Positions 10 through 6,126 of a stretch of 6,126 nt of DNA are shown here, in pieces; position 1 is the first letter of the stretch, and each line of letters begins with the position of its first letter. The position numbers and the translations under genes are program-made. The stretch covers positions 1-6,126 of the forward strand of contig MHDQ01000175.1 of NCBI GenBank assembly GCA_001803565.1, given 5' to 3'. Below the pieces are notes generated by a model that had not been told where the DNA came from, searched no databases, and saw nothing but the letters and a program-made list of their open reading frames with translations. Origin of the DNA: Nitrospinae bacterium RIFCSPLOWO2_12_FULL_45_22 (GTDB taxonomy: Bacteria > 2-12-FULL-45-22).

Positions 10-702
10 ATGGTTGAATTAATCCTGGATCCAGTGCGAAAAGGGTTTATTGTTCGTTCTGGATCCAGGTTAGTCAAAGGTAAGCGTTCACGGTGTCAAA
101 TTTTCTCAGGCAATTTTGTGATAGCTATTATAGAAAAGATAAGTCTGGTAGGTACGGCAATAATTGTCGTCTTGCAGCCTCCTTTATCTCTCAATTTATA
201 TCTTGCCGTAATTATAGCCCTGGGAGCGGCCCTGATAGATATTAAAAGCAGCAAGATTCCAAATTATTTGACCTTCCCGGCCATGGTACTGGGATTATCC
301 TATTTTGGATATGATGAGGGCTGGAGGGGATACCTCTCCAGCCTTGCCGGTTTAGGCCTGGGGATGGGTTTGTTCATGCCCTTATACCTGCTGGGGGGTA
401 TGGGGGCGGGAGATGTCAAGTTAATGGGGGCAATGGGTGCATTGGTAGGAATGGGCTTAGCTTTTAAGGCAGTAATTGCCGCTACCCTTGTGGGGGGGGT
501 ACTATCGGTATTGACTCTGGCTATCCAAGGCCAGTTAAGCCGAATTATCAAACGTTATTGGCTCATGCTGAAACTCCTTTTGTTTACCGGGGAGATTAGT
601 TATATCCCCCTGGAGGGGGAGATAAAACAGACTAAAATCCATTATGGAGTTGCTATCGCCTTGGGTACCATGATTCTCATATTGGTAGAGGAGGGTTTAT
701 GA
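10..702 (+). CDS. cpaA: Prepilin peptidase CpaA/TadV (A24 family), start uncertain
   Basis: This is an integral inner-membrane aspartyl protease that would cleave the leader of Flp prepilins (and TadE-type pseudopilins) on the cytoplasmic side. The two expected catalytic aspartates are visible: D77 in ALIDIKSSKIPN and D135 in GMGAGDVKLMGA, the GxGD-type motif. Several hydrophobic segments follow (about 64-80, 85-100, 108-130, 141-172, 213-228). There is no N-terminal methyltransferase domain, as is usual for the short Tad-type enzymes. The ATG at 10 has GGAGGT at 2-7, but only 3 nt away. It adds a basic, non-hydrophobic stretch of about 36 residues encoded by repeat-like DNA. In-frame GTG at 118 (194 aa) or TTG at 172 (176 aa) would give lengths and Asp positions closer to the family norm. 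The 3' end overlaps the next gene by 4 bp (ATGA), so the two are probably co-translated. The family call is firm; the start is not. Confidence 0.9.
   Translation: MVELILDPVRKGFIVRSGSRLVKGKRSRCQIFSGNFVIAIIEKISLVGTAIIVVLQPPLSLNLYLAVIIALGAALIDIKSSKIPNYLTFPAMVLGLSYFGYDEGWRGYLSSLAGLGLGMGLFMPLYLLGGMGAGDVKLMGAMGALVGMGLAFKAVIAATLVGGVLSVLTLAIQGQLSRIIKRYWLMLKLLLFTGEISYIPLEGEIKQTKIHYGVAIALGTMILILVEEGL
24..69. repeat. Paired CTGGATCCAG palindromes (11-bp inverted repeat)
   Basis: CTGGATCCAG, itself a perfect 10-bp palindrome, occurs at 25-34 and again at 59-68. Each copy has one extra matching base on its outer side (C24 and G69), so 24-34 and 59-69 form a perfect 11-bp inverted pair around a 24-bp spacer. 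The pair lies inside the first 20 codons of the upstream reading of cpaA. Just downstream, GTAAGCGTTCAC (about 80-91) is a second, imperfect palindrome. Together these look like a fragment of a dispersed palindromic repeat rather than conserved coding sequence; that interpretation is inference. Confidence 0.6.
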
Positions 703-2018
703 TAACGGCCTCGGCAGCCGAAGAGAAAAAAGAAGAGAAAACGGTCTGGTTCCCCCCGGTGCCAGCTAGTATCGAGGATACCGGCTTAGACCTCCTTTTT
801 CTGGTGGAGCTCATAACTAAGACTTTCTATGTGAACGGAATTTTACGTATTCCTGAAATAAGCGAATATATTAAATTACCGCCCAACTTAGTGGAGGACC
901 TGTTAGATTTTATGCGGAGAGAAAAATATTGTGAGATCCGGGGGGGGAGCGGCACAACCGCTTCTTTCCTCTTTGAATTGACCGACCTGGGACGTTCCCG
1001 GGCAGTGGATTTTTTTAATAGGAGCCAATATGTCGGCCCTGCCCCGGTCCCCTTAGAGATGTATGCGGAAGTCTCTTCCCAGCAGACCGTAAAGAACATA
1101 TTTATCACCCGGGATAATATCCGCCGGGTTTTTCAAAACCTCATTATCAAAGAAAGCCTTATAGATCAGATAGGGCCGGCCATCAATTCCGGGAAACCCA
1201 TATTTCTCTATGGCCCCCCTGGGATAGGCAAGACCTATCTGGCTGGTCACATCGTAAGCTTATTGGAGGGGAATATCTATATCCCTTACGCCCTTGCGGT
1301 AGATAATCAGATCATTAAATTATTTGACCCCACTAATCACGAGCCGGTGTCCCCTTCCCTTTCCCAGGAAAAACATCTCTCCCTCCTGAAAAAAGAATCC
1401 TATGATCAGCGATGGATATATTCTAAACGCCCGGTAGTATTGGCCGGGGGTGAGCTAACCATGGATATGCTAGACCTCCAATTTAACCCGGTCTCTAAAT
1501 ATTATGAGGCCCCTTTGCAATTAAAGGCCAATCACGGTATGTTTATTATTGATGATCTAGGAAGGCAAACCATCCCTCCCTTTGTGCTTATGAACCGATG
1601 GATTATGCCTTTAGAGAATCATTTTGACTTCCTCACCTTACATACCGGAAAAAAATTTCCCATACCTTTTGATATAATCGTAGTATTTTCTACCAATTTT
1701 CCGCCTAAAGATTTAGCGGACGAGGCCTTCTTGAGGCGTATTGGCTACAAGCTCAAGATAGACTATCTTGAGCTGGAAGAATATGAAAAGATTTTCAAAC
1801 AGTTCTGCCAGCGTAAAGGGATTCCTTATGACCAGGAGATGTTTAGCTATCTGGTTAAGGAGCATCATGAAAAAAAGGGGGTACGATTTGTTGCCTGTTA
1901 CCCGAGAGACATTATCGAACAGGTTATTGATCTCTGTCATTATCATTCTGTGCCCCTTAAATTTTCTAAAGAATTTATTGATCAGGCGTGGGATGACTAT
2001 TTCGTGACTGATTTTTAA
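699..2018 (+). CDS. AAA+ ATPase of tad loci with N-terminal winged-helix-like region
   Basis: This is a predicted cytoplasmic AAA+ ATPase, not the pilus secretion motor: it lacks the CpaF/TadA Asp-box and His-box layout. Residues about 28-108 look like a winged-helix fold (helices around ISEYIKLPPNLVEDLLDFM, then a wing and ELTDLGRSRA) and are followed by the SQYVGPAPVPLE linker. The ATPase core has Walker A GPPGIGKT (172-179), a Walker B-like MFIIDDLGRQ (281-290, D285/D286, with Asp where Glu is usual), sensor 1 at FSTN (330-333), a likely arginine finger in AFLRRIGYK (R346/R347) and a sensor 2-like YPRD (401-404). I recognise this architecture, including the SQYVGPAPVPL, LTLHTGKKF and DEAFLRRI blocks, as a conserved but uncharacterised ATPase family in several bacterial phyla. 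The AAA+ modules nearest to it are MoxR/AAA_5-like. The start codon overlaps the cpaA stop. The partner and substrate are unknown; a remodelling role in pilus assembly is inference. Confidence 0.85.
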   Translation: MITASAAEEKKEEKTVWFPPVPASIEDTGLDLLFLVELITKTFYVNGILRIPEISEYIKLPPNLVEDLLDFMRREKYCEIRGGSGTTASFLFELTDLGRSRAVDFFNRSQYVGPAPVPLEMYAEVSSQQTVKNIFITRDNIRRVFQNLIIKESLIDQIGPAINSGKPIFLYGPPGIGKTYLAGHIVSLLEGNIYIPYALAVDNQIIKLFDPTNHEPVSPSLSQEKHLSLLKKESYDQRWIYSKRPVVLAGGELTMDMLDLQFNPVSKYYEAPLQLKANHGMFIIDDLGRQTIPPFVLMNRWIMPLENHFDFLTLHTGKKFPIPFDIIVVFSTNFPPKDLADEAFLRRIGYKLKIDYLELEEYEKIFKQFCQRKGIPYDQEMFSYLVKEHHEKKGVRFVACYPRDIIEQVIDLCHYHSVPLKFSKEFIDQAWDDYFVTDF

Positions 2019-2042: not shown

Positions 2043-2071
2043 TTGACTGATGTTCCAACCTCAGGGATAAT
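2043..2071 (+). promoter_or_regulatory. Predicted sigma70-type promoter for the cpaB-cpaC operon
   Basis: TTGACT (2043-2048) and GATAAT (2066-2071) each match the sigma70 consensus hexamer at 5 of 6 positions and are separated by the ideal 17 bp. An A/T-rich tract (AAAAATTTTATT, 2033-2044) lies just upstream and overlaps the -35 box, like an UP element. The start of transcription would be near 2078, giving a 5' leader of about 210 nt before cpaB that contains the palindromic repeat. It begins only 25 bp after the stop of the ATPase gene, where a new transcription unit makes sense. No experimental support is available. Confidence 0.55.
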
Positions 2072-2113
2072 ATAAAAATCGAGGTCCAGCATTTTGGATA
2101 AATACGGTAATGA

Positions 2114-2258
2114 ACCGCAAAGCCACAAAGAACACTAAGAGAAATGTGATTAGGGCATTGGGTAATTGGGTCATTCACCAATCTAATAATGCAATAACCC
2201 AATGGCCTAATGACGCAATAGCCTAATTACCAAAATTAAATTCTTTGCGTCCTTTGTG
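2114..2258. repeat. Nested palindromic repeat element (MITE/REP-like)
   Basis: Outer arms: CACAAAGAACACTAAGAG (2124-2141) pairs with the complement of TTCTTTGCGTCCTTTGTG (2241-2258), 14 of 18 positions matching. The left arm continues outward with the related text ACCGCAAAGC (2114-2123). Inner arms are built of 8-bp units ending in ATT: four on the + strand (2144-2175) and about six on the - strand (2231 back to 2184). Examples are GGGTAATT and GGGTCATT against AGGCTATT and GCGTCATT. GGTAATT (2161-2167) pairs with AATTACC (2225-2231), GTCATT (2170-2175) with AATGAC (2209-2214), and ATTGGGT with ACCCAAT (2197-2203). It carries no ORF of its own. The type fits a non-autonomous dispersed palindromic element; mobility is inferred. 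Confidence 0.65.
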
Positions 2259-2275
2259 TAGTAACAAATTTAATT

Positions 2276-2283
2276 TAAGGGGG
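2276..2283 (+). promoter_or_regulatory. Atypical ribosome binding site of cpaB
   Basis: The AAGGAG at 2286-2291 touches the cpaB ATG (2292) with no spacer, which is too close for normal use. TAAGGGGG at 2276-2283 can pair with the 16S anti-SD if one G-U wobble is allowed, and its 8-nt spacing is normal. This is the more likely site. It sits at the 3' end of the palindromic leader, where folding could influence its access. Confidence 0.45.
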
Positions 2284-2291
2284 GGAAGGAG

Positions 2292-3113
2292 ATGAATAGA
2301 TTACTTAGGAACATCCTTCTGCTGATGGTTGCTGTTGTATTAGCAGCCGGGGCTACTTATCTTTCGATAAAATGGCTCCAGAGACAGGCAGCTTTACAGA
2401 AACGACCAGGTCTGACTAATAGAGTAGTGGTGGCAGAGGTGGATTTGGTTATAGGGTCTAAGTTAACACCCAATCTCATCAAAGCGGTCCCCTGGCCCAG
2501 GGAAAGTATTCCCAAGGAGTCATTTAATGATCCTGGCCAACTAACTGATAGGGTGGTTAAGACCACCCTTTATGCCGGGGAGCCGGTTCTGGAGATGAAA
2601 TTAGCGCCAAAAGGCATGACCGGAGGGTTATCAGCCGTTATTTCTGAGGATAAGCGCGCCCTGACGGTCAAGGTTAGTGAGATCAGCGGGGTAGCAGGAT
2701 TCACCCTACCTGGTCGGAAGGTAGATATATTGGTAACGATAGAGGATGAACAAAAAAAGGAGCCTATTACGAAGATGATATTGCAGAATATGAAGGTATT
2801 AGCGGTGGATCAAAGTGTAGACCAGTCCGGAGATAAGCCCGTAGTCGTTAATGCCGTTACCATGGAAGTTACCCCGGCAGAGACGGAGATATTGGCTATG
2901 GCTGAGGGCGAAGGGAGGATTGGATTGGCCCTGCGGAACGAGGTGGATCAGAAATTTGTTCCTACGAAAGGTGTGCACAAATCTGGCTTAATCCCCGCGA
3001 TCCGGGTGCCAGCAACGGTGGAAAAGGTGGCCTATAACCCCCCTAAACCTTCACCTAATACTATTGAGGTGATAAGGGGAGTAACCAAGACAAAGGTGGA
3101 ATCGCTATTTTGA
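2292..3113 (+). CDS. cpaB: Flp pilus assembly protein CpaB/RcpC
   Basis: This is a periplasmic, inner-membrane-anchored partner of the Tad secretin, thought in the family to stabilise or gate it. Residues 7-29 form a single hydrophobic N-terminal segment (ILLLMVAVVLAAGATYLSI) serving as anchor or uncleaved signal. A SAF domain spans about 44-106 (VVVAEVDLVIGSKLTPNLIK, then VVKTTLYAGEPVLEMKLAP). The RcpC/CpaB domain spans about 113-216 and includes the typical LTVKVSEISGVAGFTLPGRKVDILV and VTMEVTPAETEILAMAEGEGRIGLALRN stretches. A proline-rich tail (237-258) follows. The length of 273 aa is usual for the family. It is separated from the ATPase gene by 273 bp holding a putative promoter, and from cpaC by 177 bp. 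The ATG at 2292 is the natural start because it puts the hydrophobic segment at the extreme N-terminus. Confidence 0.93.
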   Translation: MNRLLRNILLLMVAVVLAAGATYLSIKWLQRQAALQKRPGLTNRVVVAEVDLVIGSKLTPNLIKAVPWPRESIPKESFNDPGQLTDRVVKTTLYAGEPVLEMKLAPKGMTGGLSAVISEDKRALTVKVSEISGVAGFTLPGRKVDILVTIEDEQKKEPITKMILQNMKVLAVDQSVDQSGDKPVVVNAVTMEVTPAETEILAMAEGEGRIGLALRNEVDQKFVPTKGVHKSGLIPAIRVPATVEKVAYNPPKPSPNTIEVIRGVTKTKVESLF

Positions 3114-3124
3114 GAAACTATAGG

Positions 3125-3160
3125 GAGGTAGAGGTAAAGGTAGAGGTGGATAAGGAAGAC
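3125..3160 (+). repeat. Degenerate 6-bp tandem repeat after cpaB
   Basis: Starting 12 bp after the cpaB stop, purine-rich hexamers run in register: GAGGTA, GAGGTA, AAGGTA, GAGGTG (3125-3148), decaying into GATAAG and GAAGAC. A similar decayed array follows the cpaC stop. It is non-coding on the + strand. Its function is unknown; it may be microsatellite-like or the remains of a dispersed repeat. Confidence 0.6.
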
Positions 3161-4763: not shown

Positions 4764-4770
4764 ATATAAG

Positions 4771-4800
4771 GGATAGGTATAGGATAAGGTAGAGGAAGCC
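4771..4800 (+). repeat. Degenerate 6-bp tandem repeat after cpaC
   Basis: Seven bases after the cpaC stop, hexamers GGATAG, GTATAG, GATAAG, GTAGAG and GAAGCC run in register. The GATAAG and GAAG-C units recall the end of the array after cpaB (3149-3160). The repeat is decayed, so the unit boundaries are approximate. Confidence 0.5.
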
Positions 4801-4844: not shown

Positions 4845-5129
4845 ATGAAGATTCCTACTAGTCTCTGTATTTTAATGGTAGTAAGTAATCTATTTTTGCC
4901 AGCTTACGGTCTGGCAGCAGAGCTAACAGCGCTGGAAAAGGACTATGGCCGGGCCTTTCATACGCTCAAGGCCGCCCAGACCCTCAACCCCGACGCCAGT
5001 AAAAACCTGGCCCCCCCGCTGGGCCTGGAGGGAAAGGTGGGTGAGAAGGTTATGCAAGAGTATTATAAAATGTTTGAGAAGAAGGAGCCCACGATTACCA
5101 ATATAATTAATATCGGTACCGGCCAATAA
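4845..5129 (+). CDS. Small predicted exported protein in the tad operon
   Basis: I do not recognise a named family. The 94-residue product starts with a clear signal peptide: K2, a hydrophobic core at about 6-20 and a likely cleavage site near GLAAE (about 22-26), leaving a mature protein of about 70 residues. The mature part is mostly helical by appearance (ELTALEKDYGRAFHTLKAAQ, then KVGEKVMQEYYKMFEKKEP), with a proline-containing break in between and a short hydrophobic end, TNIINIGTGQ. It has no lipobox, no cysteine after the signal and no Flp-type processing motif. The start is well supported by TAAGGAGG at 4829-4836, 8 nt upstream. It lies 81 bp after the secretin gene and 23 bp before the TadG-like gene, so it is probably co-transcribed. 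A periplasmic accessory or secretin-helper role is a guess from position. Confidence 0.8.
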   Translation: MKIPTSLCILMVVSNLFLPAYGLAAELTALEKDYGRAFHTLKAAQTLNPDASKNLAPPLGLEGKVGEKVMQEYYKMFEKKEPTITNIINIGTGQ

Positions 5130-5152
5130 GTCTGTTAGGGAGGTGGTTTTAA

Positions 5153-6126
5153 ATGAAGATAGCACGGCCTATCCGGGGGGAGAGGGGAAGTATCCTGGTT
5201 ATTACCGCCCTGTCCCTGGTAGCACTGGTAGGGTTTGTGGGCCTTGCCCTGGATCTGGGCCATTTGTATGTAGTTAAAACCGAGCTGCAAAATGCGGCTG
5301 ACGCAGCCGCCCTGGCAGCCGCCGAAATGATGGACAAGAGTACAGACAGTTTAATTAATGGCCGGGCAGCCGCTATGGCAGTACCTAATAAATTCAACTT
5401 CCAAAAGCAGGATGTGTCCATTGCTTCGACGAATGTCACTTTTTCTGCCCAATTATCCGGGCCATATGTTGGGGCGGAGGCGGCTGATCCTGCCACCACC
5501 CGGTTTGTCAGGGTTGCCATAAGCCCTCAAGCTATTGACCTCTGGTTTGCCCCGGTTTTAGAAATACTATCTGCCCAGGTACCAGCTATGGCGGTTGCCG
5601 GTCCCAGCTCAGCCCTGCAAGAGGCATGTGATCTGATACCACTGGCGGTATGTGAAGATACGACAAGATGCAATTTTGCTGATCCAGATGATCCTTTAGC
5701 ATGCCCTGACCCCGAGTTCGTCCCGGGAGAGATGTATACGGTCAAACTCCCTCCCGCTGGTTTTAATGAAGCTAGTCCAGGAAACTATTTAGTCTTAGAT
5801 TTTGGCGGGAGCGGATTTGCCGATGTAAGAGAGTGGATAGCAGGTGGCTATACCGGGTGTGAAGAGTTGGGCGATGGTATTACCACCCAACCAGGACAAG
5901 GGGCTGGGCCGGTATCTCAGGGTTTTAATACCCGCTTTGGAGAGTATAAAGGGGGACTATCCGAGGCTGATTATTCGCATGATACCGATGTAAGTGCGCC
6001 TATCTCCTACTCTGCTTATACAAATGGCGCTGATAATCCCCACGGTGATGGAGAATTTGGGAGACGGGTCCTGGCCGTCCCCCTGGTGGATTGTACCAAC
6101 TGGGATGGCGGTAAAAATCCCGTAAC
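5153..6126 (+). CDS. tadG: TadG-related pilus assembly protein (3' end outside window)
   Basis: The reading frame is open from the ATG at 5153 to the window end: 324 codons plus two bases, with no stop reached. The N-terminus is the typical TadE/G-like (Pfam Tad) module: a basic start with RGERGSILV, a transmembrane helix (about 13-34), then DLGHLYVVKTELQNAADAAALAAA (34-57). The rest should be extracytoplasmic. It contains cysteines at 159, 167, 173, 184, 236 and 314, possibly disulfide-bonded, and a Gly-rich region (about 216-270). At the edge the FGRRVLAVPLVDC stretch resembles the C-terminal part of Tad-like proteins with a DUF2134/Tad_C region. There is no Glu five residues after a processing Gly, so it is unlikely to be cleaved like a pseudopilin. 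GGGAGG at 5138-5143, 9 nt upstream, supports the start. Assignment to TadG rather than another Tad-domain paralogue is likely but not certain. Confidence 0.87.
   Translation, partial: MKIARPIRGERGSILVITALSLVALVGFVGLALDLGHLYVVKTELQNAADAAALAAAEMMDKSTDSLINGRAAAMAVPNKFNFQKQDVSIASTNVTFSAQLSGPYVGAEAADPATTRFVRVAISPQAIDLWFAPVLEILSAQVPAMAVAGPSSALQEACDLIPLAVCEDTTRCNFADPDDPLACPDPEFVPGEMYTVKLPPAGFNEASPGNYLVLDFGGSGFADVREWIAGGYTGCEELGDGITTQPGQGAGPVSQGFNTRFGEYKGGLSEADYSHDTDVSAPISYSAYTNGADNPHGDGEFGRRVLAVPLVDCTNWDGGKNPV

Follow-up and report, generated by a model that had tools for sequence, protein, structure and literature searches.

Among the described systems close to the repeat analyzed here are two from the literature. 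The intervening sequences (IVSs) of 23S rRNA form stems that are excised by RNase III and contain an S23p ORF, which short tandem repeats precede; a crystal structure of S23p from Xanthomonas campestris is mentioned in the same work (PMC4990558). Intergenic arrays of the heptamer TAACTGA in Beggiatoaceae were described as direct repeats, without a link to S23 (PMC4679880).

The window, that is, the whole stretch of 6,126 nucleotides that was analyzed, is contig C175 of a fragmented Nitrospinae assembly (321 contigs, 3.67 Mb, 85% complete). The genes on it form a tad/cpa-type pilus locus: a prepilin peptidase, an AAA ATPase, CpaB, a secretin, a short ORF, and a Tad-like protein (Table 1). A 17-bp inverted repeat (CCTGGATCCAGTGCGAA/TTCGTTCTGGATCCAGG, positions 24–69), with one weak partial match elsewhere (L058), lies close to where the prepilin peptidase frame starts. 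The ATPase-cpaB gap spans 2019–2291. Very probably, this gap is occupied by a non-autonomous composite, without a gene, of two families of repeat-wrapped cassettes; the composite would have dispersed as a unit, with one copy ahead of the ribosome binding site of cpaB. The outer layer would be the inverted CACAAAGN-unit arms of a GxxExxY (PD-(D/E)XK nuclease-like) cassette minus its gene, and the inner layer an S23-type ATTGGGTN-unit palindrome within the loop of the outer element.

Table 1. Features of the window in and around the ATPase-cpaB gap
Feature	Position	Strand	Basis or remark
AAA/MoxR-like ATPase gene, upstream of the gap	699..2018	+	ORF; weak bpMoxR/AAA matches, under curated cut-offs
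Sigma-70-type promoter-like match TTGACT-17-GATAAT	2043..2071	+	Outside the repeat; weakly above chance
Complete composite repeat (MITE-like, without a gene)	2110..2277	+	Alignment with other copies
Left outer arm, units of about 8–9 bp (NCACAAAG); same arm at GxxExxY remnants C229 (L115) and C320 (L113)	2110..2140	+	
Left half of inner palindrome, 8-bp units ATTGGGTN; unit as in the arms of S23 gene C124:4925-5242 (L212)	2146..2175	+	
Right half of inner palindrome, AACCCAAT-type units	2185..2231	+	
Right outer arm, starts AATTAAATTC, ends GTAACAAATTTAATTTA	2234..2277	+	
G-rich ribosome binding region of cpaB, directly 3′ of the repeat	2278..2291	+	Sequence
cpaB (RcpC/SAF)	2292..3113	+	ORF; domain match
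Second repeat array, cpaB-secretin gap, 6-bp units AGGTAN (AGGTAGAGGTAAAGGTAGAGG)	3121..3155	+	Same as the arm flanking S23 gene C92:28760-29017

The repeat is about 168 bp long (about 2110 to about 2277), with outer arms of CACAAAGN units and a core of ATTGGGTN units. It has inverted termini, lacks an ORF, and occurs in several dispersed copies, like a miniature inverted-repeat element (MITE). None of 500 shuffles equaled the RNA fold of 2122–2258 (−42.0 kcal/mol, z = −4.9) or that of 2146–2214 (−27.6 kcal/mol, z = −4.5). The full repeat, 2110–2277, gave −42.7 kcal/mol (z = −3.6; as DNA, z = −6.1). The nested palindrome reported in the preliminary description is thus well above chance and, if transcribed, it lies wholly within the 5′ untranslated RNA of cpaB, as had been stated. 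The fold comparison proposed there, over the 223 nt of 2078–2300, reached only z = −2.1, in contrast to the tighter stretches. The palindrome had also been said to end 17 bases before the ribosome binding site; alignment with the other copies extends it rightward from 2258 to about 2277, and the distance to this G-rich site shrinks to 1–2 bases. Five aligned copies showed one compensatory change among 28 pairs, with an unfavorable covariation term, so that selection on the hairpin itself is not demonstrated.

A blastn search of the same genome gave 58 matching places. When as many as 2 mismatches were allowed, the arm motif CTTTGCGTCCTTTG occurred 80 times, versus 21 for the reversed pattern. 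Close copies of the composite, 78% identical along almost their whole length, were present at two unrelated sites, in contigs C285 and C289. These two and the window copy have common outer arms, inner palindrome, and junctions; the loops vary, and the right outer arm of the window copy has one unit of about 8 bp fewer. The composite would have spread as one unit to at least three sites, and one copy would have settled before the cpaB ribosome binding site. Related nests were found in C116 and C242. Based on mechanical ORF calls for the neighboring genes, 48 related places were examined. The flanking genes were codirectional at 30 of them, divergent at 10, and convergent at 3; another 3 places lay at contig edges, and 2 fell within mechanical ORFs. 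A composite that lies beside unrelated genes, in every gene arrangement, does not have the distribution of a cpaB-specific leader. The idea of a repeat element recruited as a leader is thus supported as regards the repeat element, but not as regards its recruitment for cpaB.

Nesting also occurs in the reverse order: at L029 (1400–1720) an arm element lies inside a ATTGGGTN palindrome, and at L031 (1500–1680) there are three layers. Insertions seem to favor the loops of existing palindromes. Five sites (L020, L022, L023, L024, and L029) have an extra outer layer (AGTTTAGCCACAAAAAGGCACAAG/GCGCATTTTTGCGGCTTATTTTTAGAAGACTTTAGTCGGCTAAAC) around CACAAAG arms, and their inner parts are 82–85% identical to the copy in C163. 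The exact 28-mer of the left arm was absent from the genome_contigs collection (84,980 species) and from viral contigs, so the exact arm looks lineage-specific. The phage collection gave no match and the plasmid collection one weak match of 50 bp; a scan of the genome collection with the ATPase found no relative. By eye, no obvious target-site duplication was seen in the aligned copies. Two genomes of the class were among those compared; the other one, of the same order and 68% complete, encodes neither the ATPase nor cpaB, and for this reason no empty site or target-site duplication could be demonstrated.

A near-consensus promoter had been placed just after the ATPase gene. The promoter-like match is present and its placement is correct (the ATPase stops at 2018): the promoter scan gave 10 of 12 matches for TTGACT (2043–2048) and GATAAT (2066–2071) with a 17-bp spacer. 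Across the window, such sites are as frequent as chance predicts (9 promoter-like sites vs. 9.1 ± 3.2 in shuffles), which makes the promoter suggestive at most. The score of 10/12 was reached in 3.6% of the shuffles of the unique 91-nt stretch 2019–2109, and in 8.1% for the whole gap. This stretch had no second copy among the loci of the same genome that were compared, and the promoter-like match is consequently not part of the repeat. TTGACT-17-GATAAT may be a promoter, although the sequence alone does not establish one.

This match, with its ideal spacing in a unique stretch, is one argument for a dedicated 5′ leader, in which a promoter at 2043–2071 would start the cpaB transcript near 2078 and the hairpin would control its stability, elongation, or translation. 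The strong predicted hairpin and the position and orientation of the element, which set the stem before the ribosome binding site, point the same way, but the chance-level promoter count and the occurrence of the composite next to unrelated genes do not. No described riboswitch or leader family in Rfam matched the gap. In the closest cpaB homologue found (33% identity), the gene and the ORF before it overlap by 4 nt, and there is no gap. The hairpin had been suggested to affect mRNA stability, elongation, or translation of cpaB. The ribosome binding site was predicted to be unpaired with a probability of 0.16 with the element and 0.26 without it for a start at 2078, and 0.23 and 0.19 for read-through transcripts. 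The start codon gave 0.87 with the element versus 0.85 without it (start at 2078), and 0.45 versus 0.78 (read-through). Accessibility of the binding site is barely altered, so no clear switch is predicted for cpaB, and we regard a dedicated leader as quite unlikely. A long stem between two genes could also be a transcription terminator or attenuator; this is highly improbable, given that the gap has no G+C-rich stem followed by a T run and no other terminator-like site. In the composite reading, any effect on cpaB would be incidental (an intercistronic hairpin, mRNA processing, or partial polarity). It is possible, judging from the predicted folds, that an intercistronic stem is cleaved or slows mRNA decay, and in RNA the stem might be a target of RNase III-like cleavage by analogy with the 23S rRNA IVSs.

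The outer arms lead to the GxxExxY genes. The genome has 12 PF13366 matches, 5 of them long and 7 (L113–L119) C-terminal remnants between arms, a proportion that suggests recurrent internal deletion. By eye, nearly all 12 lie inside inverted arrays whose unit differs per locus (CACAGAGN, CACAAAGN, ACAGGATN, GGAGATNN, CAAGATTNA). In C229 and C320, a GxxExxY gene with its middle deleted is located between arms of the outer-arm type of the window. The stop in C229 runs into the right arm, and the AATTAAATTC that begins the right arm of the window is the stop end of this ghost frame (..IVN, then the stop). The composite thus has its arms in common with internally deleted gene-bearing copies, as is typical of MITEs. 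No intact GxxExxY gene with exactly the arm sequence of the window was found in the assembly, which is 85% complete. Intact members scored 135–156 bits against TIGR04256 (cut-off 35) and keep the conserved GxLE, D, ExK, and Q. D..ExK..Q is the signature of a RecB/Cas4-like nuclease of the PD-(D/E)XK type. Among solved structures there was no sequence match for GxxExxY, and the defence library gave only weak Cas4-like matches. The nuclease would recognize and process the hairpin or cruciform of the arms.

The ATTGGGTN core had been assigned to the S23 family, the proteins of 23S rRNA intervening sequences, as a prediction made before the test, and contig C124 bore it out. There, the S23 gene at 4925–5242, one of 9 PF05635 matches in the genome, is wrapped in arms (GGTTATTAGGTTATTGGG.../...CCTAATGACCTAATAACC) with the unit of the window core; among solved structures, its protein matches 2gsc from X. 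campestris. Other S23 cassettes of this genome have different units (heptamers, hexamers). Most S23 cassettes (L209–L216) are inside operons, in sense, and directly upstream of the ribosome binding site of the next gene; one (L214) lies between apparent tRNA genes. The type of array found in the cpaB-secretin gap also forms a palindrome at C107:3609-3668, and the gap at 4770–4793 resembles it, although no match was obtained. Pipelines might misread the short-unit arms around S23 genes as repeat arrays.

Both associations extend to unrelated genomes. We took a single gene from each genome, all from different families, compared the inverted repeat between its upstream and downstream flanks with 200 dinucleotide shuffles, and used PIN-domain genes from the same genome set as a control. 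Significant inverted flanks (0/200 shuffles) were present in 20 of 27 GxxExxY genes and 18 of 28 S23 genes, versus 0 of 29 PIN genes; the genes tested were the best-scoring ones of each family, and 200 shuffles bound each p at about 0.005. The test was failed by 7 GxxExxY and 10 S23 genes, and among further GxxExxY genes, several per genome, 16 of 29 passed. Short-unit periodicity appeared at lags of 7 and 14 in S23 arms and 8–10 in GxxExxY arms, and was absent from the PIN control. Degenerate triple-unit CRCRRAG arrays, which are of the outer-arm type, occurred in 20 of 145 genomes, and the reversed pattern had 0 matches. GxxExxY genes were present in 17 of these 20 genomes (odds ratio 36, p = 3e-10), against an odds ratio of 5 (p = 0.02) for PIN genes. 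Arrays far outnumber genes (127 vs. 1 in G048, 75 vs. 3 in G049), as expected for gene-less derivatives.

The same excess of arrays would agree with the repeats having come first: short-unit palindromes would expand and disperse through replication or recombination, while the GxxExxY and S23 genes could be passengers rather than movers, or host-derived binders of such structures. The differing units of cassettes within one genome and the nesting in both directions are in line with this. We nevertheless judge it somewhat unlikely, in view of the very strong co-occurrence of arrays with GxxExxY and of the internally deleted copies, which keep the ends of the gene and indicate that it was inside before those copies lost it.

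When both neighbors of a cassette share a strand, the cassette gene is in sense in 25:0 cases for S23 and 19:2 for GxxExxY, and the window copy, judged from its arms, is also in the sense orientation typical of cassettes. This bias fits co-transcription, either required for function or merely tolerated. It might reflect mobility at the RNA level, IVS-like or retro-like, with the element transcribed, folded, and recognized as RNA, and S23 is indeed the protein of the 23S rRNA IVSs (PMC4990558). However, selection for harmless co-transcribed insertions would produce the same bias, and the neighboring genes rest on mechanical ORF calls; RNA-level mobility is in our opinion unlikely.

A further candidate mover is a classical transposase, Y1 or other, acting on a MITE derived from REP/RAYT or an IS. 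The genome has five Y1_Tnp matches, and dispersed palindromes are typical of REPs, but the arms track GxxExxY and S23 genes instead, and the palindromes that flank the Y1 genes are unrelated to them (1 octamer unit match in the five Y1 loci), which leaves this origin improbable. Since the palindrome family is not located at the ends of Y1/RAYT genes, the repeat was not classified as a RAYT-associated REP/REPIN. The Y1_Tnp genes at L103 and L106 have inverted flanks of their own, unrelated to the arms.

To our knowledge, GxxExxY and S23/IVP are widely distributed families without an assigned role. The window copy has shared arms and a shared core, the composite is multi-copy with internally deleted relatives, and both gene families are tied to inverted short-unit arrays in unrelated genomes. 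We propose, tentatively and as a little short of an even chance, that GxxExxY and S23 genes drive a widespread, undescribed class of minimal mobile elements, in which a gene of about 120 aa lies inside inverted arrays of degenerate 7–9 bp units; palindromic derivatives without a gene would nest in the loops of one another and accumulate in intergenic gaps of many unrelated bacteria. Among 5.39 million open full-text papers, with subscription journals outside this set, no link between GxxExxY and flanking arrays was found and GxxExxY was mentioned only incidentally; searches by sequence strings gave chance hits only. The cassette association thus appears to be undescribed in the open literature searched. 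If GxxExxY and S23 mobilize or maintain such arrays, a large share of the unexplained intergenic hairpins of bacteria would have an origin, many apparent leader hairpins or regulatory repeats would have to be re-read as element remnants, and the movement of 23S rRNA IVSs would become testable outside rRNA.

Compared with known systems, the repeat resembles REP/REPIN sequences with RAYT in being a dispersed intergenic palindrome linked to a chromosomal protein, and differs from them in its unit arrays, its nested layers, and the absence of a tie to a Y1 transposase. The Beggiatoaceae arrays are likewise short-unit intergenic arrays at many sites, for which mobility and regulation were both discussed (PMC4679880). 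As in 23S rRNA IVSs, an inverted-repeat stem surrounds an ORF for an S23 four-helix bundle, which in the Coxiella IVS is preceded by heptamer repeats (PMC4990558), and the cassette of C124 has such an ORF in its stem; unlike IVSs, the cassettes here are between protein genes and not in 23S rRNA. The window copy, located between the ATPase gene and cpaB and lacking an S23p ORF, was therefore not counted as an IVS. The GxxExxY family (TIGR04256/PF13366) is the gene partner of the outer arms and has the RecB/Cas4-like motif D..ExK..Q, while its name refers to a sequence motif only and open papers searched make no link to flanking arrays. With MITEs the repeat shares its short length, the lack of a gene, inverted termini, multiple copies, and kinship with internally deleted gene-bearing copies; it differs in its arms, which are arrays of degenerate 7–9 bp units, in its partners GxxExxY and S23 in place of a transposase, and in the lack of a target-site duplication obvious by eye. 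The feature in the window itself thus belongs to a known kind, the MITE-like palindromic repeats; what merits further attention is the cassette association.
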